NCBI GenBank assembly: GCA_949285665.1
Contig: CASDYC010000001.1
Location: 389,376 to 453,375 of the forward strand
DNA: 64,000 bases
Source of the DNA: an uncultured bacterium
Lineage (GTDB): Bacteria > Bacillota_I > Bacilli_A > RFN20 > CAG-826
Reading direction: 5' to 3'
Position 1 is the first letter of the stretch. Each line of letters begins with the position of its first letter. This document shows positions 30,450-56,203 of the stretch, piece by piece. The notes under the pieces are model-generated. The model was not told the origin of the DNA. It was given only the letters and a program-made list of their open reading frames with translations, and did not search any database. The translations under genes were made by a program, and so were the position numbers.

Positions 30450-31229
30450 TTATTTATTACTACTTTCTTTATTCTCTCTAATTAATAAAGAATTTTTACT
30501 TAAATCTTCGTTATATTTTGAAGTAATTGCTAAATAAATTAAATAAATATAAGGCATTCCAAGATTAGTTTCTATTAATGAATTAAGTATTAATGTTTGT
30601 AGACTATTTTCATTAAGTGGTCTAATTCCATTAACTAATAATGCTGCTTCCCAACAAAATTGAACACTAATTCCAATTAATAATAACCATAAAATATTAA
30701 TTAATTTTTTCTTTGTAAATAAAGAGTAAACAATAATTCCAATATATCCAACAAGTAAAATAATTGCCATTGCTCCATGATATTGATTAGTTGTTCTAAA
30801 TGTTTGAATATTATTTGCTCCGCCCATTGCCGTAACACTTGGAATTATTAACCACCAGCCAATTATTAAAATTAACCAATATTTTAAATATTTATCTTTA
30901 CTTAAACATAACCAAATAAAAGCAAAATTAGTTATTCCATAACTTAATGACATCCAAAGTAAAACTAAAGCGGTATATAAATTATCTTGAACAATTCCAT
31001 CAATTGAAACAACTCTTGATCCAGATATTAAATAAAAATAGCCATAATCAACAATAAAATATAAAATCCCTCCAGCCACAGCAAAAATTGTTGTTAAATA
31101 TCGCTTTTTTAATATTAATAACACCAAAAATCCAACAATAAATAAAGAATCTAAAATAATATATAAAAGATTAAAATTTCTAGTTGGAGTTATGTTAGAG
31201 CCTAAATCAGTTAAAAAATTTAAAAACAT
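30450..31229 (-). CDS. Seven-helix membrane protein of unknown function
   Basis: 259 residues, about seven hydrophobic segments with a short charged C-terminal tail. I do not recognise the family with confidence. Notable conserved-looking motifs are VDYGYFYLISG (helix 3), YHGAM (helix 5), QFCWEAALL (helix 6) and ETNLGMPYIYLIY (helix 7). It follows the SDR gene by 5 bp and shares the ribosome binding site AGGAG inside that gene's end. The two are therefore co-translated and possibly act on one small hydrophobic substrate (inference). Confidence 0.6.
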   Translation of the reverse strand: MFLNFLTDLGSNITPTRNFNLLYIILDSLFIVGFLVLLILKKRYLTTIFAVAGGILYFIVDYGYFYLISGSRVVSIDGIVQDNLYTALVLLWMSLSYGITNFAFIWLCLSKDKYLKYWLILIIGWWLIIPSVTAMGGANNIQTFRTTNQYHGAMAIILLVGYIGIIVYSLFTKKKLINILWLLLIGISVQFCWEAALLVNGIRPLNENSLQTLILNSLIETNLGMPYIYLIYLAITSKYNEDLSKNSLLIRENKESSNK

Positions 31230-32226: not shown

Positions 32227-34212
32227 TTAAAGGTTTACACAATCAATAATATTTACAAAGTAAATATTGAATGAATCTTTACCATTTACAATACTTGGAT
32301 TTTTAACTTTTAAAATTAACATTACAATTAATGTTGTAAAGTTTCCACTAATTGTATCTTCACTGCTTGAACCTGAGGCTGCATTCCAATAATAGCTTAA
32401 AACTTCATATTTTTCTTCATTAACTTTAACAGAATAAATTGCATCTGTTGTAGAACCTTCTACTGGAGTTTTTACATAGACAACATCTTCTTGAGTTGGA
32501 AGAATTGAAAGTTCGCTACCTTCATTTACAATGACTAATTCGTTGTTATGGAATTCTTCACTATAAATATTATCAGTTGAATTAAATTCACTTTGAGTAA
32601 ATTTACAATCTTCAAATCTTACTTTGTTATTTGCTGCGCCATTTTGATAACCAATAAATTGAATACCACCATAATCTTCAGCATTATTGGCAATAAGTTC
32701 TGAATTTTTAACTGTTATTGTATTATTTAAGCCACTATCTTCTCCACTTGGGAATTTATAATAACCATCAATTGTAATATTTGAAAATCCATAAACTTTA
32801 TCAGAGACATGGTTAACAGATTCTAAAACTGAATTATCAACAGTAATAACATCGTTATTATCTTTTACATAAATTGCTCCCCAAGCTCTTACATAAGAAT
32901 TTGTAAGATTTAATACAAGTCCATCATTACTTTGTAAATTAAATCCATAATAACCTTTTGCAAGACTACCATCTTCTGTATAACTACAATCAATACTAGA
33001 ATTGTTAATATTTAAGACAACTTTACCTAAATTTCTTGCAATTTGGATACCATAACAACCTTTTCCGCCAGCAATACCATTGCCTTTGAAATCAACATTT
33101 TCAAGAGATACATTAACATCATTATGATCTGTGACATTAATTAATCCATCATATGATTTATTATTGTTGTATGATTCAAAATCAACATTTTCAATAACAA
33201 CATTCATGTTTTCTGGAACAATTTCATCAGCATTATTTAAATTAATAATGTAATTACCACTACCATCAATAGAATTTTCTTTTGAAATAATTGGTTTATT
33301 TTCAGCATCGCTACCTTTTAAAACAAAATTATGAGTATTAATTGAAAGTTGAGAATCAATTTCATAAGTTGTTCCAGCATTTAATGTAACTTCAACACCT
33401 AAAGTTTCTGTTTCAATTAATTTTCTTGCTGCTGCAATATCTTCTTTTGTTTTAGATAGATCAATTTTAAATGCAGCACCTTTTAATTGTTCTGCACTCA
33501 TATCATCGATTGTATCGACCATATTAGGAGCAACAACTAATGGATCTTCTAAGCTACCACTTCCAGACTCAAATTTAACTCCTGCTGAAATTGTACCTTT
33601 ATTTAATACATTTCCATAACCGTCAATTAAAGCATCTGTATATAATTGACCATCTTCAAAGTAATTTGGAGTTAATTTATTATCAAAAGTAGCTCTAATA
33701 ACAAATCCATGTTCTTTCATGACAGTTGTGTAAGTATATTTTCCATTAGCATATGGAACTAAACTTCCATCAACAGCGACATTATCGACAAATAATTTAT
33801 CAAGATAATATCCTTCGTCTGGTGTAATTGTAAAGACAACACTTTCACCAACTAAACCTGTTTTTGTTCCGTCACTTACAAAACCGCCTACACTTGGAAG
33901 AATTGTATTTCCCCAAACGTCTTTTCCATCAACGCCGTCTTCCCCAGCTTCACCAGTTTCACCTTTGTCACCTTTGTCACCAGTTTCACCTTTTTCACCG
34001 TCTTGACCATCTTTTCCAGGTTGACCTTGTGCACCTTGTTCCCCGGTTTCACCTTTTTCACCTTGTTCACCTTTTGGACCAGTGTCACCAGTTTCACCTT
34101 TTGGACCAGTAATTACGGTTGTTTCTTGAGAATCAGATGGATTACAAGCTGTAAGACCTCCAACTAATAAACAAGCAAGTGCCAAGACACTTAAATATTT
34201 TTTATTTTTCAT
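32227..34212 (-). CDS. Collagen-like lipoprotein with beta-helix domain (paralog 1)
   Basis: 661 residues. A signal peptide ends in lipobox LTAC (Cys23). Residues 36-98 are 21 uninterrupted Gly-X-Y triplets (GPKGETGDTG style), a likely trimeric collagen-like stalk. Next is a small beta domain (about 100-180) of the 'GGFVSDGTKTGLVGESVVFTITPDEGYYL' kind, seen in bacterial surface repeats. A long Asn/Asp-rich part (about 280-540) follows, with spaced ILV-x-I-x-N strands typical of a right-handed parallel beta-helix. An adhesin or glycan-binding role is inference. The paralog next door is nearly identical in the N-terminal third and diverges in the last 100 residues. The ribosome binding site is AAAGGAAG. 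Confidence 0.85.
   Translation of the reverse strand: MKNKKYLSVLALACLLVGGLTACNPSDSQETTVITGPKGETGDTGPKGEQGEKGETGEQGAQGQPGKDGQDGEKGETGDKGDKGETGEAGEDGVDGKDVWGNTILPSVGGFVSDGTKTGLVGESVVFTITPDEGYYLDKLFVDNVAVDGSLVPYANGKYTYTTVMKEHGFVIRATFDNKLTPNYFEDGQLYTDALIDGYGNVLNKGTISAGVKFESGSGSLEDPLVVAPNMVDTIDDMSAEQLKGAAFKIDLSKTKEDIAAARKLIETETLGVEVTLNAGTTYEIDSQLSINTHNFVLKGSDAENKPIISKENSIDGSGNYIINLNNADEIVPENMNVVIENVDFESYNNNKSYDGLINVTDHNDVNVSLENVDFKGNGIAGGKGCYGIQIARNLGKVVLNINNSSIDCSYTEDGSLAKGYYGFNLQSNDGLVLNLTNSYVRAWGAIYVKDNNDVITVDNSVLESVNHVSDKVYGFSNITIDGYYKFPSGEDSGLNNTITVKNSELIANNAEDYGGIQFIGYQNGAANNKVRFEDCKFTQSEFNSTDNIYSEEFHNNELVIVNEGSELSILPTQEDVVYVKTPVEGSTTDAIYSVKVNEEKYEVLSYYWNAASGSSSEDTISGNFTTLIVMLILKVKNPSIVNGKDSFNIYFVNIIDCVNL
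33919..34107 (-). repeat. Collagen-like Gly-X-Y coding repeat, copy 1
   Basis: Twenty-one Gly-X-Y codon triplets. The DNA is nearly the same as at 36052-36240, so the pair is a good site for recombination or gene conversion. Open frames on the other strand here are by-products of the 9-bp periodicity. Confidence 0.85.
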
Positions 34213-34288
34213 AAAATCTTCCTTTCAGTTAATTATTTTATCACAAATTAAATATAAATAATACCAAATTCACCAGTAATAAAAGAAA

Positions 34289-34319
34289 AAAGATGTGTGA
34301 TTTAACTTCACACATCTTT
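34289..34319 (-). terminator. Terminator after the second collagen-like lipoprotein gene
   Basis: A 12-bp perfect stem (34289-34300 with 34308-34319), 7-nt loop and a T-rich end on both strands. Confidence 0.85.
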
Positions 34320-34356
34320 AATTTTTTTCTTTAAATTTTTGTTAATTTAGTTTTAA

Positions 34357-36345
34357 TTAAAAGGATAATCCGATATATGCAATTAATGGTATTCCATCAG
34401 TTGTTGTAAGACCAATAAATCCAATATAGCATTGTAATCTACCAGAAACAACTTTTCCTTCAACAGTAAATGCAGTTTCCTTTGTTGATCCGCCTTCTCC
34501 ATTATCTAATGCATAAGTCCATAAAACGTCTACTAAACCAACGCCATCTGGTAAAATCATTCCAACTAATGTACCTGAAGCAATTTCTTCATCAGAATAA
34601 TCTTGAACAACTACTTGGAAATCTTCATGGAAGTTAATTACAGTTTCAACGCCATCTTCAACAACAATAATAGTGTTATCATCTTGAATAAAGTTACCTA
34701 AAGATACGTTATCAGCGTAATTATCTTCGCCATTAATATAAGTATTATTGTCTAATTTAATTGTATTTTTAGTTGCATCATATTGGAATGCAAAATAATT
34801 TAATCCACCATAACCTTTAGTATTAACTAAATTGAAAGTTGTATTACTAACATTTACAGTATTTCCAACACCAGCTGGTTTTTCAATCTCACCAACAATT
34901 GCACCACCATCAAATACAATACTTGAGAATGAATATACTTTATCATTAACATTGTTTACAGTTACAAATTCACAGTTATCAATATTAATGATGTCATTAT
35001 TATCTTTAATATAAACATTACCCCACGCTCTAATATAAGTATTTGTAATATTTGCAACTAATCCGGTATTATTTTGAAGATTTAATCCATAATAACTTCT
35101 CTTTAAGCTTCCATCTTCACTATAAGCTAAATCAATTGAGCTATTATTAATATTAAGTTCAACATCACCAGTATTTCTTAAAATTTGGATACCATAAGCA
35201 CCTACTGTGGATGTTCCTTCATTACCTTTATAACTTACATTTTCTAAATTAATTGTTGCATCTTCTTGATCTGCAATATTAATAAATGCACTAGCAATAC
35301 TATTGTCAAAGTTTTCAAAATCAACATTTGTAATTGTAATATTGATATCTTTTACAACATTTTTAGCATCATTATAGTTAATAATAAATGCAGAGCCAGA
35401 AGTTGATCCTTCTTTTGAAATAACTGGTTTATTATCGGCTTCAGTTCCAGTTAATGTTAAGTTAGAAGTTCTTGACATTAAAGCATCACTAATTTCATAA
35501 GTTGTACCAGCATTTAAGATAACTTCAACACCTAATGTATCTCTTTCAAGTAATGCAAATACAGCATCAACATCTTCTTTTGCTCTTGATAAATCAACTT
35601 TAAATGCTGTGACTTTCATTTGTTCATCACTTAAACCATCTAACATATCAGTTTTTGAAACATCAACAATTAATGGATCTTCTAATGTACCACTACCAGA
35701 TTCAAATTTAATTCCTTGGGTAGCTTCACCTTTATCTAATACATTTCCATAACTATCAATTAATGCATCAGTATATAATTGACCATCTTCATAATAAGTT
35801 GGAGTTAATGTATCATCAAATACAGCTCTTACAACAAATCCATTTTCTTTCATGACTGTTGAATAAGTATAAACTCCATTTTCATATGGGACTAAACTTC
35901 CATCAACTAATTGATTGTCAACATAGAATTTATCAAGGAAATATCCTTCGTCAGGTGTAATTGTAAATGTGATATCTTCTCCAACTAAACCAGTTTTTGT
36001 GCCATCTGTTACAGAACCACCAACACTTGGAATAATTGTATTTCCCCAAACATCTTTTCCATCAACGCCATCTTCCCCAGCTTCACCAGTTTCACCTTTG
36101 TCACCTTTGTCACCAGTGTCACCTTTTTCACCGTCTTGACCATCTTTTCCAGGTTGACCTTGTGCACCTTGTTCCCCGGTTTCACCTTTGTCACCTTGTT
36201 CACCTTTTGCACCAGTGTCACCAGTTTCGCCTTTTGGACCAGTAACCACAGTAGTTTCTTGAGAATCACTTGGACTACAAGACGTAAGTCCAATGACTAA
36301 TAAACAAGCAATGGCTAAAGCTCCAATAAATTTCTTGTTTTTCAT
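34357..36345 (-). CDS. Collagen-like lipoprotein with beta-helix domain (paralog 2)
   Basis: 662 residues, same architecture as the neighbour: signal peptide with lipobox LTSC (Cys23), 21 Gly-X-Y triplets (36-98), a small beta domain (about 100-180) and a beta-helix-like region (about 270-540). Its C-terminal tail (VDVLWTYALDNGEGGSTK...) differs from paralog 1. The ribosome binding site is AAGGAGAA. Each copy has its own terminator, so they are separate transcription units created by tandem duplication. Upstream (36346-36520) is AT-rich and promoter-like but has no feature I can place firmly. Confidence 0.85.
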   Translation of the reverse strand: MKNKKFIGALAIACLLVIGLTSCSPSDSQETTVVTGPKGETGDTGAKGEQGDKGETGEQGAQGQPGKDGQDGEKGDTGDKGDKGETGEAGEDGVDGKDVWGNTIIPSVGGSVTDGTKTGLVGEDITFTITPDEGYFLDKFYVDNQLVDGSLVPYENGVYTYSTVMKENGFVVRAVFDDTLTPTYYEDGQLYTDALIDSYGNVLDKGEATQGIKFESGSGTLEDPLIVDVSKTDMLDGLSDEQMKVTAFKVDLSRAKEDVDAVFALLERDTLGVEVILNAGTTYEISDALMSRTSNLTLTGTEADNKPVISKEGSTSGSAFIINYNDAKNVVKDINITITNVDFENFDNSIASAFINIADQEDATINLENVSYKGNEGTSTVGAYGIQILRNTGDVELNINNSSIDLAYSEDGSLKRSYYGLNLQNNTGLVANITNTYIRAWGNVYIKDNNDIINIDNCEFVTVNNVNDKVYSFSSIVFDGGAIVGEIEKPAGVGNTVNVSNTTFNLVNTKGYGGLNYFAFQYDATKNTIKLDNNTYINGEDNYADNVSLGNFIQDDNTIIVVEDGVETVINFHEDFQVVVQDYSDEEIASGTLVGMILPDGVGLVDVLWTYALDNGEGGSTKETAFTVEGKVVSGRLQCYIGFIGLTTTDGIPLIAYIGLSF
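36052..36240 (-). repeat. Collagen-like Gly-X-Y coding repeat, copy 2
   Basis: Second copy of the 21-triplet block, differing from copy 1 by a few conservative codons such as Pro to Ala and Glu to Asp. Confidence 0.85.
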
Positions 36346-36520: not shown

Positions 36521-37132
36521 ATGAAAGAAAAAATTAAAAAAATATTAACATTAATTGAAGCATTACTAATTTTAGTTAGTATTGCATTTTTCTATGTATT
36601 TTTTATCACCACTTTAATAAAAGATGGCTCTGAAAATGTTAATTTTCTTCCAGCAATAATTTATTTAACTTTTGGAGGAATGAGTATATTAATTTGTCTT
36701 TCAATGTTTCAACTTTATAAAAAGCACGATAGTGATTTTTTACAATCAGGATATGACTATATATTTAATTGCATTGCCATTTCACAATTAATTTCTTGTA
36801 GTTTTTATTATATTAACATAAATGATTCATATTTTATAAGAATCGAAAACGATCCAAATTATATACTTTCAATTATTGTATTATTAGTCGGTTATATTGT
36901 TTTATATGGTATATTTTTTAAGTATAAATTCTTTAAATTATTTAGATTTGTACCTTATTTAGCATTAATAATTTGTATTGTTTTATTTATCAATATTAAT
37001 TTAGATCCTTATTTAATTTCAAGTTGTGTGTTAATGATTATTTGTATTTTAATTGCAATAATTAAGTCATTTTTAATAACAAAAACAAAAAACAATCAAA
37101 CTAAAGAAGAAAATAATACTAGCGAAAATTAA
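36521..37132 (+). CDS. Small polytopic membrane protein, unknown
   Basis: 203 residues with six hydrophobic segments and a short hydrophilic, Asn/Glu-rich C-terminal tail. No family recognised. It stands alone on the plus strand between minus-strand units. Its stop codon abuts the queH stop with no gap and no terminator. No Shine-Dalgarno is visible (TAATAAATAATAACA before the ATG), so the start is chosen only as the first ATG in frame. Confidence 0.55.
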   Translation: MKEKIKKILTLIEALLILVSIAFFYVFFITTLIKDGSENVNFLPAIIYLTFGGMSILICLSMFQLYKKHDSDFLQSGYDYIFNCIAISQLISCSFYYININDSYFIRIENDPNYILSIIVLLVGYIVLYGIFFKYKFFKLFRFVPYLALIICIVLFININLDPYLISSCVLMIICILIAIIKSFLITKTKNNQTKEENNTSEN

Positions 37133-38788: not shown

Positions 38789-40440
<1,652 letters not shown>

Positions 40441-40450
40441 ATATTTCAAA

Positions 40451-40495
40451 CCTCCTTGTTTTTTAAAAGATGGTTAGGCAAGGACAACATCTTTT
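40451..40495 (-). promoter_or_regulatory. preQ1-I riboswitch controlling queT-tgt-queA-queH
   Basis: On the minus strand, an 8-bp stem AAAAGATG (40488-40495) with CATCTTTT (40465-40472) closes a loop containing CCTTG and ending in CCTAAC. An A-rich tail AAAAAACAAGG follows. The loop CCTTG is complementary to CAAGG in the tail, which forms the H-type pseudoknot of preQ1-I riboswitches. The same CAAGGAGG is the queT ribosome binding site, so ligand binding would block translation. The tail resembles the known Thermoanaerobacter example. Confidence 0.9.
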
Positions 40496-40510
40496 CTTTT
40501 AAACCTTAAT

Positions 40511-40539
40511 ATTATAGTAAGAATTAAATAAAATATTAA
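40511..40539 (-). promoter_or_regulatory. Promoter of the queT operon
   Basis: On the minus strand, TATAAT (40511-40516) with a weak TTAATA (40534-40539) at 17-nt spacing, about 15 bp before the riboswitch. Confidence 0.55.
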
Positions 40540-40673
40540 GTTATTTTATTAAAATGATAAATTTATTAAAATAATGCAACTTTTTTATTGAAAACATCAA
40601 TTTTATAATAAAAAATATGCATAAAATTTTTCAAAATTTAGAATTATTATATCGATTTTATCGGCATTTTATA

Positions 40674-40700
40674 TGAAAGTGTTTTCAGTAACCGTTTACA
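40674..40700 (+). promoter_or_regulatory. Tandem cre-like operators upstream of the 52-codon gene
   Basis: Two 14-bp near-palindromes share one base. TGAAAGTGTTTTCA (40674-40687) and the reverse complement of 40687-40700, TGTAAACGGTTACT, each match 13 of 14 positions of the CcpA cre consensus TGWAANCGNTNWCA. They lie about 30-60 bp before the likely transcription start, upstream of the -10. That placement suits activation as well as repression. Another LacI-family regulator could bind instead. Confidence 0.6.
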
Positions 40701-40726
40701 GAATTTTAATTTTAAAAATAATGTTT

Positions 40727-40763
40727 TAATATATTCTCGAAGTTAAGAAAAAGAATTAACTTC
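40727..40763 (+). promoter_or_regulatory. Promoter -10 and 5'-terminal hairpin of the peptide mRNA
   Basis: A -10-like TAATAT/TATATT (40727-40735) has a weak -35. The predicted start at about 40739-40742 coincides with a perfect 8-bp hairpin, GAAGTTAA (40739-40746) with TTAACTTC (40756-40763). A hairpin at the extreme 5' end commonly stabilises Firmicutes mRNAs. Confidence 0.5.
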
Positions 40764-40785
40764 AAAAATAAGGAGGATTAAATTT

Positions 40786-40944
40786 ATGTTAAACGAAAAA
40801 GAAATTGAAAGAAATCCTAAATATGAAAACGAGGACAGACAATTAGAACAAATGACATTCATGACAACTAATATGTACCTTGCTTCTAGCTCAATTGGTC
40901 TCAATAATCCTTGTGTCATATCCTCAATGGGATTTATTGATTAA
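40786..40944 (+). CDS. 52-residue peptide, possible secreted or modified peptide precursor
   Basis: ATG at 40786 with a near-perfect Shine-Dalgarno (AAGGAGGA, 40770-40777) and TAA at 40942-40944. Residues 1-25 are strongly charged (MLNEKEIERN, then PKYENEDRQL). Residues 26-52 lack charge except a final Asp and are rich in Ser, Thr, Asn and Gly with one Cys (LASSSIGLNNPCVISSMGF). Charged leader plus small-residue tail is the layout of ribosomally made modified-peptide precursors, but no modification enzyme or exporter is adjacent. I do not recognise the family. cre-like operators, a 5' hairpin and a strong terminator suggest high, regulated expression. It could also be a signalling peptide or a small cytosolic protein. 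Confidence 0.65.
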   Translation: MLNEKEIERNPKYENEDRQLEQMTFMTTNMYLASSSIGLNNPCVISSMGFID

Positions 40945-40975
40945 TTTTAAAAATTTATTATAACTACATAAAAAC

Positions 40976-41005
40976 AAACGCTTCACAATTGTGAAGCGTT
41001 TTTTA
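40976..41005 (+). terminator. Strong terminator after the peptide gene
   Basis: Inverted repeat with 13-bp arms (40976-40988 with 40989-41001), in practice a 10-bp GC-containing stem AACGCTTCAC/GTGAAGCGTT with AATT loop, followed by T6. It may also serve the converging hydrolase gene. Confidence 0.9.
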
Positions 41006-41015
41006 TTATATTTAA

Positions 41016-41915
41016 TTATTTATTTAAAAATTTAATTATATCTTTTATAACTTCATCTTTAAAATTTTCATTCAATATCTCGTGTCTTCCTTCATAATAA
41101 ATTGAATTAATTTTATCATGACCACAATTTTTATATATTTTAATTAATTTATTTAATGTTTTAGTATTTTTTGAAACTGGATCATATTTTCCGGCCAATA
41201 TTAAAATATTTAAATTAGGATCTATATTTTTTATTTTATCTTTATTAAATAAATTAGCTAATCCTTTAATTAAATATAAATAAAATCCATTAGAACATTG
41301 ATAATTACAAGCCTTATCAGCTAAATATTTATTAACATTTTCTTTATTAAAACTTAACCAATCAGCTTTTGTTTGTTTATTTTTAATAGCTTTTTCATAT
41401 TGACCAATAGTTAGTGTTTTTAATAATTTAGCTGGTTTATTAAAATTATTTTTATTTACAATTAATCTAGCTAGTAAATATCCAATTTTAGAGCCTAAAA
41501 TTGGTCCACTTGATCCAATTAATATTAATTTATCAGTTGAAAATTTATGTCTTTGAATCATATTTTGACAAATAAATGATCCCATAGAGTGGCTAATTAT
41601 ATAAATTGGAACATCATATTGATTTTTTAGCGTGCAATATAATTCAAATATTGAATCTGACATCTTGTTAAAAAAATCTTTGCAAACTATTCCATAAGAT
41701 TTTTCATCAATTACATTTTCACCTTGTCCATAATGATCTAAACAATAAACTTGATAATAATTTTCATTAAGTTTGTTTGCTAAATAATCATATCTATTAC
41801 AATGTTCTTGCATTCCAGTTACCAAAATAACTATTTTTTTAAAATCATCTTTACTCCAAACTTTCCCTTTTAGTTTATCTCCGTATGAATTTATAAAATT
41901 AAAATTTTGTTTCAT
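41016..41915 (-). CDS. Alpha/beta hydrolase, lysophospholipase/monoglyceride-lipase-like
   Basis: 299 residues of the S33-type 'serine aminopeptidase' hydrolase group. Strand and oxyanion region VTGMQEHCNRY near 33-43 resembles the HG-x-x-EH pattern of monoglyceride lipases. LDHYGQGEN follows, with the nucleophile Ser110 in SHSMGSF, Asp in AGKYDPVSK and His in YYEGRHEILNE. No signal peptide, so probably cytosolic, acting on lipid esters. The ribosome binding site is GAGG. It is divergent from the SDR/EFR1 pair. Confidence 0.85.
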   Translation of the reverse strand: MKQNFNFINSYGDKLKGKVWSKDDFKKIVILVTGMQEHCNRYDYLANKLNENYYQVYCLDHYGQGENVIDEKSYGIVCKDFFNKMSDSIFELYCTLKNQYDVPIYIISHSMGSFICQNMIQRHKFSTDKLILIGSSGPILGSKIGYLLARLIVNKNNFNKPAKLLKTLTIGQYEKAIKNKQTKADWLSFNKENVNKYLADKACNYQCSNGFYLYLIKGLANLFNKDKIKNIDPNLNILILAGKYDPVSKNTKTLNKLIKIYKNCGHDKINSIYYEGRHEILNENFKDEVIKDIIKFLNK

Positions 41916-41975
41916 TTTTTAAACCTCTAATAAAATTATTTTATCATTTTTATTATTTACAAAAAACGAAACATT

Positions 41976-42000
41976 AAATACTTTTAATTTTTAAGTATTT
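41976..42000. promoter_or_regulatory. Palindrome between divergent hydrolase and SDR genes
   Basis: 8-bp arms AAATACTT (41976-41983) and AAGTATTT (41993-42000) with a 9-nt spacer, in the shared upstream region. It could be an operator, but AT-rich chance repeats are common here. Confidence 0.3.
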
Positions 42001-42058
42001 TATGAAACATATCTACACAAATTTTCATATTTTAAACAATAAATACATATAAATTTTA

Positions 42059-42064
42059 TATAAT
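42059..42064 (+). promoter_or_regulatory. -10 box of the SDR-EFR1 pair
   Basis: TATAAT 22 bp before the ATG, followed by the Shine-Dalgarno AGGAAG. No good -35. Confidence 0.45.
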
Positions 42065-42086
42065 AATAAAGTTAGGAAGTTTTATT

Positions 42087-43025
42087 ATGAAAACAAAAGA
42101 TAAATCATGTTTAAAATATATTAATTCAAATATAAAAAATACTAAAAATAAAACAATATTATTAAACGGAGCAACTGGTAGTATTGGATATGAGGTTGTT
42201 AAATTTTTAAGTTACTTAAATAATAATTTAATAATTTTAGTTAGGAATGTTGAAAATGGATTAAAAATTAAACAAGAATTTGAATCATTATATAAAAATA
42301 AAATTGACGTTTTATATTTTGATTATTTAAATAAAGATTCGATCAATGATGTTTTCAATTATTTAAAAAATAATAACATTAATTTAGATATTTTTATTAA
42401 TATTAGTGGAATTTATCATCAAAAATATGAAATTATTGATGAATTAGAAAAAACATATTTAGTTAATTATTTAATGCCAATAAAATTTATTGATAATTTA
42501 TTTAATTTATATAATAATTTAAAAGTAATTATTACTGATAGTGTTACATACCATTTTAACGTTAATAATAAAAAATTATTAAAAATAAATAATAAAGAAG
42601 ATTATATAAGCTACTTAAACTCCATTAAAAATAAAACAAAAAGATACGGGATAACCAAGCGATTATTATTAGAATATTTAACTAATTTAAAATATTTGCA
42701 AAATAAAAATATTATTTTTGCTCATCCTGGAATTTCAGGAACAAACTTATTTAAAGCAAAAAATAAAGCTTTTAATAAAGTATTTTATTTATTTGTTCCA
42801 AGTTTAATGAAGTTAATTTTTATGTCTCCAAATAAAGCTTCTTTATCTTTAATTAAAGCGTGTGATGTTGACGAAATTGAGATTAATAAATGGATTGGAC
42901 CAAGAGCTTTTATTCATTGTTGGGGTTATCCAAAAATTTATAACCTTAGTAAAAAAGCTTATGATAAAAAAATTACAAATAAAGTATTTGAATTAACAAA
43001 TCTATTATGGAAAAAGCAATTTTAA
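42087..43025 (+). CDS. SDR-family oxidoreductase
   Basis: 312 residues. The nucleotide-binding motif NGATGSIG (27-34) has one Gly fewer than classical SDRs. FINISGIYH takes the place of NNAG. The active-site region holds IITDSVTYHF with Ser and YGITK with Tyr-x3-Lys. The C-terminal part (HPGISGTNLF, RAFIHCWGYPK) recalls retinol-dehydrogenase-like or protochlorophyllide-reductase-like SDRs that handle hydrophobic substrates. It overlaps the flavodoxin-ferredoxin gene by 19 bp, so the two are translated together. Substrate unknown. Codon use is extremely AT-rich even for this genome. Confidence 0.8.
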   Translation: MKTKDKSCLKYINSNIKNTKNKTILLNGATGSIGYEVVKFLSYLNNNLIILVRNVENGLKIKQEFESLYKNKIDVLYFDYLNKDSINDVFNYLKNNNINLDIFINISGIYHQKYEIIDELEKTYLVNYLMPIKFIDNLFNLYNNLKVIITDSVTYHFNVNNKKLLKINNKEDYISYLNSIKNKTKRYGITKRLLLEYLTNLKYLQNKNIIFAHPGISGTNLFKAKNKAFNKVFYLFVPSLMKLIFMSPNKASLSLIKACDVDEIEINKWIGPRAFIHCWGYPKIYNLSKKAYDKKITNKVFELTNLLWKKQF

Positions 43026-54090: not shown

Positions 54091-54975
54091 ATGAAAAGTA
54101 ATAAATTAACGACTAAAGATATTACATTTATATCTTTTATGATTGCAATTACAATTGTTTTTTCAATTATTTTAAGATTTATTCCATTTTCGTTTATATT
54201 AATCATTATCATCATTCCTTGTATTGCTTCTTTTGTAAGCATAAAAATAAATTTATGGAAATCCTTTATATATTTTATTGTATCAATTTTATTATCTAGT
54301 TTATTTTCAATTAATGATATTGGAAATATTTTATTTTACATGATTCCAGGACTATTTAGTGGTGTTTTGTTGGGATTTTTGATTAAAAAGAAAATGCATT
54401 TATTTGAAATATTGCCTCTTATTTCTTTTACTTCATATCTTATTTTTTTAATTTTAATTCCATTAATTAATTTGATATATGGAATAAACTTTATTGATAT
54501 TTTCTTATCATTATTTAAACTGGAAAATACAAATTTAAATTTAACTATTATTTATCTTATTTTATTTTTATCAAATGTAATAACAACACTATTTTCACTA
54601 CTATTTAATTACTATTTATGTATAAAATTTCAACTAAAAATCAACTTAATTACTACTAAAAAACTACAAAATCCCTGCATTTCCTTAATATTTTTAATTT
54701 TAACTATACTTTTAAATTTTTGTCTGTTTTTGAATATTTATATATTATACGAAATATATTTAATCGGTTTTTATTTTAGTTTAATTCAATTGTTTTATCT
54801 TAATTTTAACAAAAAATATAACATAGTTTTTGTTGCTTTAAATTTTATAATTTTAATTATGTTAAGTTATTATTCCACTCTTATACTTCCATTAAAATAT
54901 TTATCAATTTTATTAACTATTCCTTTTATAATAAATGATATTTATTTAATATCATTTAATAAAATAATATATTAA
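54091..54975 (+). CDS. Polytopic membrane protein (DUF2232/YybS-like or ECF S-component-like)
   Basis: 294 residues with about eight hydrophobic segments. The start (LTTKDITFISFMIAITIVFSIILRFIPF) and the MIPGLFSGVLLGFLIKKK segment recall YybS/DUF2232 and ECF S components. Confident family assignment is not possible by eye. It heads a plus-strand set of three membrane-associated genes. TGCTAAAAT lies 9 nt before the ATG and there is no proper Shine-Dalgarno, so the leader would be very short. Confidence 0.55.
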   Translation: MKSNKLTTKDITFISFMIAITIVFSIILRFIPFSFILIIIIIPCIASFVSIKINLWKSFIYFIVSILLSSLFSINDIGNILFYMIPGLFSGVLLGFLIKKKMHLFEILPLISFTSYLIFLILIPLINLIYGINFIDIFLSLFKLENTNLNLTIIYLILFLSNVITTLFSLLFNYYLCIKFQLKINLITTKKLQNPCISLIFLILTILLNFCLFLNIYILYEIYLIGFYFSLIQLFYLNFNKKYNIVFVALNFIILIMLSYYSTLILPLKYLSILLTIPFIINDIYLISFNKIIY

Positions 54976-54984
54976 AATAATTGT

Positions 54985-55479
54985 ATGAAGTTTTTCAAAA
55001 CTCTTGGTAAATCTTTATTATATTTAATACTTTCACCAATTATTCTTGCGGTATATTTATTGTTTTGTATATATTCTATATTTGTTTTTTTATATAAATT
55101 TTTTGTTTTTGGCTGGAAATTTATTACTGGTAAAAATATCGATTTTAAACTTGATGAAGATTTACAAGCTCAAAAAATTATTGATGATGCAAAAAAATCA
55201 AACACTTCTAACAATAAAGAAGCAATTGATACAAAATCTCCAGTAATTGAAGTTTCAAGCCGGCCAAATCAAGTAATTAATAACTATATTATTGCTAATA
55301 ATATTGAAGATGCTAAAAAATTAGCAGATCAATTGTCTAATAATCAAATGAATGATAAAAATTTAATTGGAAATGATCAAACCATAGAACAGGTAAATCA
55401 AATTGAACATACTAATGATGAAAATAATGATGAAAATAATAATGAAATAAAAGAGGAAGATAATTATGATGAACGTTAA
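54985..55479 (+). CDS. Small membrane-anchored protein with disordered tail
   Basis: 164 residues. A long hydrophobic N-terminal hairpin (about 8-48) is followed by a hydrophilic, Asn/Asp/Glu-rich tail with a central segment NYIIANNIEDAKKLADQL. No family recognised. TAAAAT spans the previous stop codon and ends 6 nt before this ATG, and no Shine-Dalgarno is seen. It overlaps the next gene by 14 bp. Confidence 0.6.
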   Translation: MKFFKTLGKSLLYLILSPIILAVYLLFCIYSIFVFLYKFFVFGWKFITGKNIDFKLDEDLQAQKIIDDAKKSNTSNNKEAIDTKSPVIEVSSRPNQVINNYIIANNIEDAKKLADQLSNNQMNDKNLIGNDQTIEQVNQIEHTNDENNDENNNEIKEEDNYDER

Positions 55480-56203
55480 CTTTCTTTTAAAATTATCTGA
55501 AACTGATAAAAGATTTATAATTGCATTTATATGTATTATTTTAGTAATTTTAGCATTTTTGATTTTTATTGTCTTATTAATTAGTTATATTTCAAAAAAA
55601 CAATCTTATAAAATTGATGCTTTAATGCATGACGTTGTAATAACTGGAGTTATTGATTCAAAGAAAAAATTTATTAAAGTTGCAAGAATAAAAAACGCAA
55701 ACTACTTCTTTAAATCAGCATCTATTCCTTTTGCTTTATTATTAATTTCGTTTATTATTTTATTAATTTATTCTTTATCTTTAAGTATTAGTTTTAGTTC
55801 TTTATTCAGTGATTATAGTGAAAAAGGATATGGATTTGCTACAATTTTATACATTTATGATTTTAATAATATAAAATTTGTTGATACTATTTTTGGCTCA
55901 TTTCCTCAAGAAATTCCATTATTAAATACACCACATTTTTCTTTAAATGCATTACTTCCAATCATATTTATTTTCATAATTATTATTTCCGGAATTTGGT
56001 TTTTAATGACTGTTCAAGCATATCTTGCAAGAACTATTAGAAGTTATAAATTAGCAACTAGTATTTATCAAAAACAACTTGATAATGTAAGATTTGATAA
56101 CTTAATTAACTTTAAATATCAAAACGGAAATGTAACATATACAAAAGTAAATGAAAACAATATTGAAGAAAATACAAATAATCAAAATGTAGAAAATAAA
56201 TAA
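55466..56203 (+). CDS. Membrane protein of unknown function
   Basis: 245 residues. Three clear hydrophobic segments (about 18-40, 87-112, 168-190) flank a probably extracellular loop (113-165), with soluble parts at 41-86 and at the C-terminus. Two Mets open the frame, with AGAGGA upstream. It overlaps the previous gene, so the two likely form a complex (inference). No family recognised. It converges on a 74-residue protein gene. Confidence 0.6.
   Translation: MMNVNFLLKLSETDKRFIIAFICIILVILAFLIFIVLLISYISKKQSYKIDALMHDVVITGVIDSKKKFIKVARIKNANYFFKSASIPFALLLISFIILLIYSLSLSISFSSLFSDYSEKGYGFATILYIYDFNNIKFVDTIFGSFPQEIPLLNTPHFSLNALLPIIFIFIIIISGIWFLMTVQAYLARTIRSYKLATSIYQKQLDNVRFDNLINFKYQNGNVTYTKVNENNIEENTNNQNVENK

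Follow-up and report, generated by a model that had tools for sequence, protein, structure and literature searches.

Sites of the cre type are bound in Firmicutes by CcpA and by other LacI-family regulators, and in Escherichia coli the SgrS/SgrT system consists of a small transcript of the sugar-stress response and a small protein that acts on a sugar transporter. In Bacillus subtilis, SR1 base-pairs with ahrC and kinA mRNA, and SR1P binds GapA. The SR1 RNA of Bacillus subtilis, as described in a review (PMC8464778), is 205 nt long, encodes the 39-aa protein SR1P and is under carbon control, mainly by CcpN and to a smaller extent by CcpA, with the CcpN sites at the promoter and a cre site ~260 bp upstream. 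The same text confines the SR1 homologues to Bacillales and gives RosA as a CcpA-controlled RNA (PMC8464778).

Here we analyzed a short unit at 40674-41004 (+) of a 64,000-nucleotide stretch of DNA from an uncultured bacterium (the whole stretch is called the window hereafter), in which a pair of cre-like sites, a promoter, a hairpin, a Shine-Dalgarno sequence, a 52-codon frame and a terminator were read directly from the sequence. Our reading, which we put forward tentatively, is that the unit is a lineage-restricted small-protein gene under a LacI/CcpA-type repressor and that its product would act as a helical adaptor. As in SR1/SR1P, a short standalone transcript, a small protein and carbon-type control come together, but the cre-like pair lies on the -35 here whereas the cre site of SR1 lies further upstream; this likeness is an analogy at the level of the layout and not a claim of membership. 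SgrS/SgrT resembles the unit by description, as a small sugar-related transcript with a small protein, and its regulator is of another type. With the cre sites of CcpA and other LacI-family regulators the locus shares 14-bp near-palindromes, one of them over the -35, although each site here carries one mismatch and the candidate regulator is only CcpA-like. None of the papers returned by a literature search describes such a gene in its title or the opening of its abstract.

Layout of the unit and its paired cre-like sites

The unit begins with site 1 (TGAAAGTGTTTTCA, 40674-40687, +) and site 2 (AGTAACCGTTTACA, 40687-40700, +), which share one base and each match 13/14 positions of the cre consensus TGWNANCGNTNWCA. 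Both of the overlapping 14-bp sites proposed by the initial annotation, each at 13/14, were found in place. Site 2 overlaps the -35 (TTTACA, 40695-40700), which is followed after a 16-nt spacer by the -10 that had also been claimed (AATAAT, 40717-40722). This promoter (+) reaches 10/12 in a consensus scan, a level that is not above chance by itself, and the window shows no surplus of promoter-like sites as a class (20 found vs 20.4 expected). The position of the -35 inside site 2 is the arrangement of a repressor site.

A lone 13/14 match means nothing, and the operator rests on the pairing and the position of the sites, because sites of 13/14 or better are not enriched genome-wide (120 vs 164 for the pattern read backwards). 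At least one 13/14 site occurred in 0.58% of simulated 120-bp stretches, and two such sites within 14 nt occurred in 0/20,000 simulated 120-bp upstream stretches of intergenic composition and in 0/200 simulated 64-kb sequences that follow the dinucleotide pattern of the window. All other close sets of sites in the real window (33966-33988 and 36099-36130) are within two collagen-like genes, into which 8 of its 16 cre-like 13/14 matches fall. These genes, of 661 and 662 aa, are large, lie next to each other at 32227-36345 (-), and both match Pfam Collagen at residues 36-93. A third 13/14 match, absent from the list of the initial annotation, is located within the 52-codon frame (40824-40837, +), where its function is doubtful.

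Judging from the position of the -10, transcription would start near 40729, and the predicted length of the transcription unit is ~280 nt. A hairpin of 8 pairs with a loop of 9 follows (stem 40739-40746/40756-40763, +), with a folding energy of -7.0 kcal/mol (z -2.3; 5/200 shuffles as good). This hairpin (40739-40763) had been placed at the very 5' end of the mRNA; it is present, but would be near that end and not at it, because its stem begins ~10 nt after the start implied by the -10. The Shine-Dalgarno sequence AAGGAGG (40770-40776, +), near-perfect as had been noted, lies 9 nt 5' of the ATG of the 52-codon frame (40786-40944, +; ATG 40786, stop TAA 40942-40944), which would encode an orphan small protein. 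The unit is closed by an intrinsic terminator (+) with an 11-bp stem (40976-41001) and a T run to 41004, 31 nt past the stop. Frame and strong terminator are both as the initial annotation had them.

The terminator was detected on both strands by the scan and exists as a single copy in the window; being palindromic, it possibly stops transcription of the convergent gene as well, whose end is at 41016. An inverted-repeat match around it (80% over 69 bp) was rejected as a separate element, since it is the palindromic terminator with its AT-rich flanks. Because the downstream neighbour (41016-41915) is convergent and queT (39907-40449) is divergent from the small-protein gene, the unit is a standalone one, and the convergent neighbour speaks against a leader peptide for any + strand gene further on.

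Upstream of queT, at 40450-40483 (-), we also observed a hairpin resembling a translational preQ1-I riboswitch, whose loop could pair, by eye, with CAAGGA of the Shine-Dalgarno sequence; the Rfam PreQ1 model gives this hairpin 13.1 bits (E 1.2), below the gathering score of 39.

Candidate regulators and related operators in the genome

Four LacI-family proteins were found in the genome. The initial annotation had called the gene sugar-regulated, and both the LacI/CcpA-type operator and these four regulators agree with it, but the protein nearest to CcpA (L010) reaches 153.9 bits on TIGR01481, whose cut-off of 442 lies far higher; the other three score best on the RbsR model, likewise below its cut-off. 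HPr kinase was unmatched in the genome, an absence that means little because the same search gave a match in only 3 of the 14 control genomes and failed to detect the kinase in Bacillus subtilis. Sugar regulation of the small-protein gene is plausible on indirect grounds, and the regulatory step, in which a LacI/CcpA-type repressor would gate a short mRNA, is moderately supported. In such a step, a LacI-family repressor, most likely the CcpA-like one, would bind the pair of sites, which covers the -35 and the stretch just before it, and would block RNA polymerase, and through this proposed block the gene would be switched by the carbon source.

The genome also holds cleaner operators of this type before other genes. 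Site 1, which carries T in place of the C of the central CG, is one base (this central C) away from the palindrome TGAAAGCGTTTTCA, the operator before the SBP_bac_8 gene at locus L005 of the same genome. Exact matches to TGWAARCGNTNWCA were found 8 times over both strands, at five places, vs once for the backwards pattern. Four of the five places are just upstream of genes, namely before an SBP family 5 lipoprotein gene (L001), before the LacI regulator of L013 when its ATG and not the upstream GTG is taken as the start (L002), before a flavodiiron-type protein gene (L003), and before the gene of the SBP_bac_8 solute-binding protein mentioned above (L005); the fifth is inside a gene (L004). 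The cre-like site at L003 (TGAAAGCGGTTTCA, 1501-1514) is ~80 bp before the flavodiiron-type gene, which one would not expect a sugar regulator to control.

A second type of operator, TGAYAACGTTATCA, was seen in the interval that separates a LacI gene from a PfkB-type kinase gene (L012, 1702-1788) and also at G000:C1:67515-67528 and 76205-76218. One of the latter two copies is just before the SBP family 5 gene that also has the cre-like site of L001. These sites probably belong to another LacI regulon.

Coding content of the frame and folding of the transcript

The frame has a codon score of +0.107 bits per codon, against values from -0.40 to -0.77 in the five alternative frames. Among 303 pieces of real genes (mean +0.52, sd 0.24), 4.0% score as low as the frame, and among 49 shadow ORFs (mean -0.60, sd 0.43), 4 score as high. 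The coding content of the frame is coding-like but weak. A piece of the Shine-Dalgarno sequence of at least five bases stands before 19/49 training genes and 0/49 shadow ORFs, and a piece of four bases before 2/49 shadow ORFs; 21/49 training genes have no piece recognised by the list that was used. The frame is probably a coding gene, though an atypical one. Operator, Shine-Dalgarno sequence and codon score agree with the compact, regulated and probably translated gene of the initial annotation, while its further word "abundant" had been drawn from the strong signals only.

The same layout could also belong to a transcript whose main work is that of a regulatory RNA acting by base pairing, either by itself or in a dual function, with the peptide in a minor or secondary part. 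We consider this unlikely. A standalone transcript of ~280 nt with its own promoter, its own terminator and a carbon-type operator is comparable to SR1 and RosA as the review presents them (PMC8464778); moreover, the whole transcript folds with a z of -3.9 (0/200 shuffles as good), and the frame folds better than 293/300 permutations of synonymous codons. However, the stretch that opens with the start codon and stops just short of the terminator has a z of -1.3, with 23/200 shuffles as good, and 33/300 permutations of the codon order fold as well as the frame does, so that RNA structure inside the frame is not convincing. A full Shine-Dalgarno sequence and 52 open codons would also be needless for an RNA, and no Rfam family reaches its gathering score in 39900-42100; the three matches below gathering in this region (E up to 1) are two over the terminator region and one in queT. 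The folding results neither show nor exclude a regulatory RNA. A new dual-function carbon-control RNA, in which the one transcript of ~280 nt would regulate by base pairing and also serve as mRNA for a new small protein, having arisen independently of SR1 and SgrS in a bacterium with a small genome (1.03 Mb), seems to us improbable.

The small protein, its relatives and its proposed role

The encoded peptide has two unlike halves. The head (residues 1-22) has a GRAVY of -2.17 and a charge of -3, and the tail (residues 23-52) a GRAVY of +0.63 and a charge of -1. No transmembrane helix is expected because the highest 19-residue hydropathy mean is 0.9. A single-sequence AlphaFold2 model predicts one helix at residues 11-34 (mean pLDDT 70.6, pTM 0.37). 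An amphipathic helix was considered and rejected, the predicted helix being no more amphipathic than shuffles, and for this reason it offers no docking face.

One feature of the tail calls up a different origin, in which the frame would be the remnant of a larger gene, possibly one for a nitroreductase-fold protein, of which the promoter, ribosome site and terminator were kept. This origin, which we regard as quite unlikely, fits the weak codon score and a resemblance of residues 16-40 to the central helix of nitroreductases: the segment scores 5.0 bits on a 31-protein profile (31/20,000 shuffles as good) and 4.9 bits on a 33-row profile (40/20,000), and decoy profiles of QueT and Tgt gave unremarkable results (7717 and 10677 per 20,000 shuffles as good). 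The nitroreductases in the profile come from this genome and its family, its rows being the frames of 33 of the 34 loci L015-L048, 31 of them distinct, with L023 under the length limit. But the nitroreductase family was picked by eye after the peptide had been seen, and across the ~25,000 Pfam families a match with a chance of 0.0016 should turn up many times. Furthermore, a profile of the nitroreductase N terminus (26 of the 31 distinct proteins) was matched by 1909/20,000 shuffles, and the best pairwise alignment with a nitroreductase lies elsewhere in the fold, with 55/1000 shuffles as good. Nitroreductase is absent from the Pfam, NCBIfam and solved-structure results; for PF00881 there was no Pfam match at a limit of E 10, a search in which the HMMER filters drop most weak matches. 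The apparent nitroreductase resemblance of the tail is a lead only.

In the same genome, near-identical starts of a nitroreductase gene lie near contig ends at two loci (L014, 1480-1635; L016, 1441-1926). Compared by eye, the L016 copy is ~15 residues shorter than the L014 copy, in frame, near the N terminus, and this difference may be an assembly effect.

Searches for relatives of the peptide returned none. Protein searches covered 56, 196 and 279 whole genomes; the sets overlap, its own genome is in them, and none of the 56 is listed as the same genus. They gave the gene itself and three weak matches. Two of these overlap a frame on the other strand, of 70 aa for L007 (G009, E 0.036) and of 333 aa for L009 (G093, E 0.034), and were taken as chance; the third, L008 (G054, E 0.28), is broken by two stops. 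Scans of genome and viral contigs would see close relatives only, because they require an exact eight-residue word, and records very near the genome of the window were possibly omitted from them; the 84,980-species collection gave 223 and 67 word matches in two word phases, and the viral collections 42 and 17 in two scans, with zero relatives in either. Plasmid and phage scans for the peptide gave nothing. The peptide had no match in Pfam, NCBIfam, the solved structures or PADLOC, and its sole match in PHROGs, phrog_22414 (E 0.25), was set aside.

The position beside queT was also compared. This gene was found in 43 of the 56 genomes, and loci were returned for 30 including our own, leaving 29 relatives, in which ATG frames of at least 30 aa with a Shine-Dalgarno piece and without overlap by a larger frame were sought in the ~0.5-1.6 kb available upstream of queT. 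No comparable gene was found upstream of queT in these 29 relatives. Three of the loci (L057, L063 and L064) have a small frame upstream of queT and on its strand, unlike the peptide (alignment scores of 23-27 vs 269 for the peptide with itself), and at two others (L058 and L069) the frame taken as queT is doubtful. The initial annotation had suggested an undescribed family; the peptide is indeed an orphan to which no homologue was found, but one sequence is no family.

An orphan frame with a weak codon score might also have arisen by chance on a non-functional or unrelated transcript, and in simulation 52 stop-free codons from a given ATG have a chance of 1.3%. What makes such a chance frame distinctly unlikely is the joint presence of the paired operators, a terminator just past the stop, and AAGGAGG at the right distance, a motif whose simulated chance within 20 nt is 0.04%.

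The neighbourhood was scanned with Pfam over all 23 ORFs of at least 150 aa between 29656 and 56203. The neighbours include a queuosine set (QueH, QueA, TGT and QueT), an alpha/beta hydrolase of the serine-hydrolase type, a short-chain dehydrogenase, a flavodoxin/ferredoxin protein, GatAB, DNA ligase and a UvrD helicase, and five of the 23 have no Pfam match (30450-31229, 36521-37132, 54091-54975, 54985-55479 and 55466-56203). This fits the earlier remark that no processing gene lies alongside. The modified or secreted peptide that had been suggested, of which the small protein would be the precursor, is highly improbable, because against the charged head, the Ser/Thr/Asn/Gly-rich tail and the one Cys of the sequence stand the lack by eye of a Gly-Gly leader and of a signal peptide, the low hydropathy maximum given above, the failure to recognise any maturase or peptide exporter among the 18 Pfam-matched of the 23 flanking genes, and a genome-wide search for LanC, the sole maturase family so sought, that found no LanC-like protein (its control gave a match in 1/14).

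We therefore return to the lineage-restricted small-protein gene. The unit of ~280 nt would carry one gene, whose product would be a cytosolic small protein of 52 residues found in this lineage only. Small and helical, this protein may act as an adaptor: on a change in the sugar state it would bind a partner, an enzyme or a transporter, and adjust its activity, like SR1P or SgrT; this biochemical role is suggested by analogy. We infer that the unit is transcribed and translated, and likewise the regulator that binds it, the direction of the control and the partner. At present it is a single orphan sequence, and it seems to add one further member to a known general kind, the lineage-specific genes for small proteins. 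Annotation easily overlooks genes of this size, and here the control signals are unusually complete, in a genome of 1.03 Mb. Should the gene be expressed, it would make a clean test case for small proteins that are specific to a lineage and tied into carbon control.
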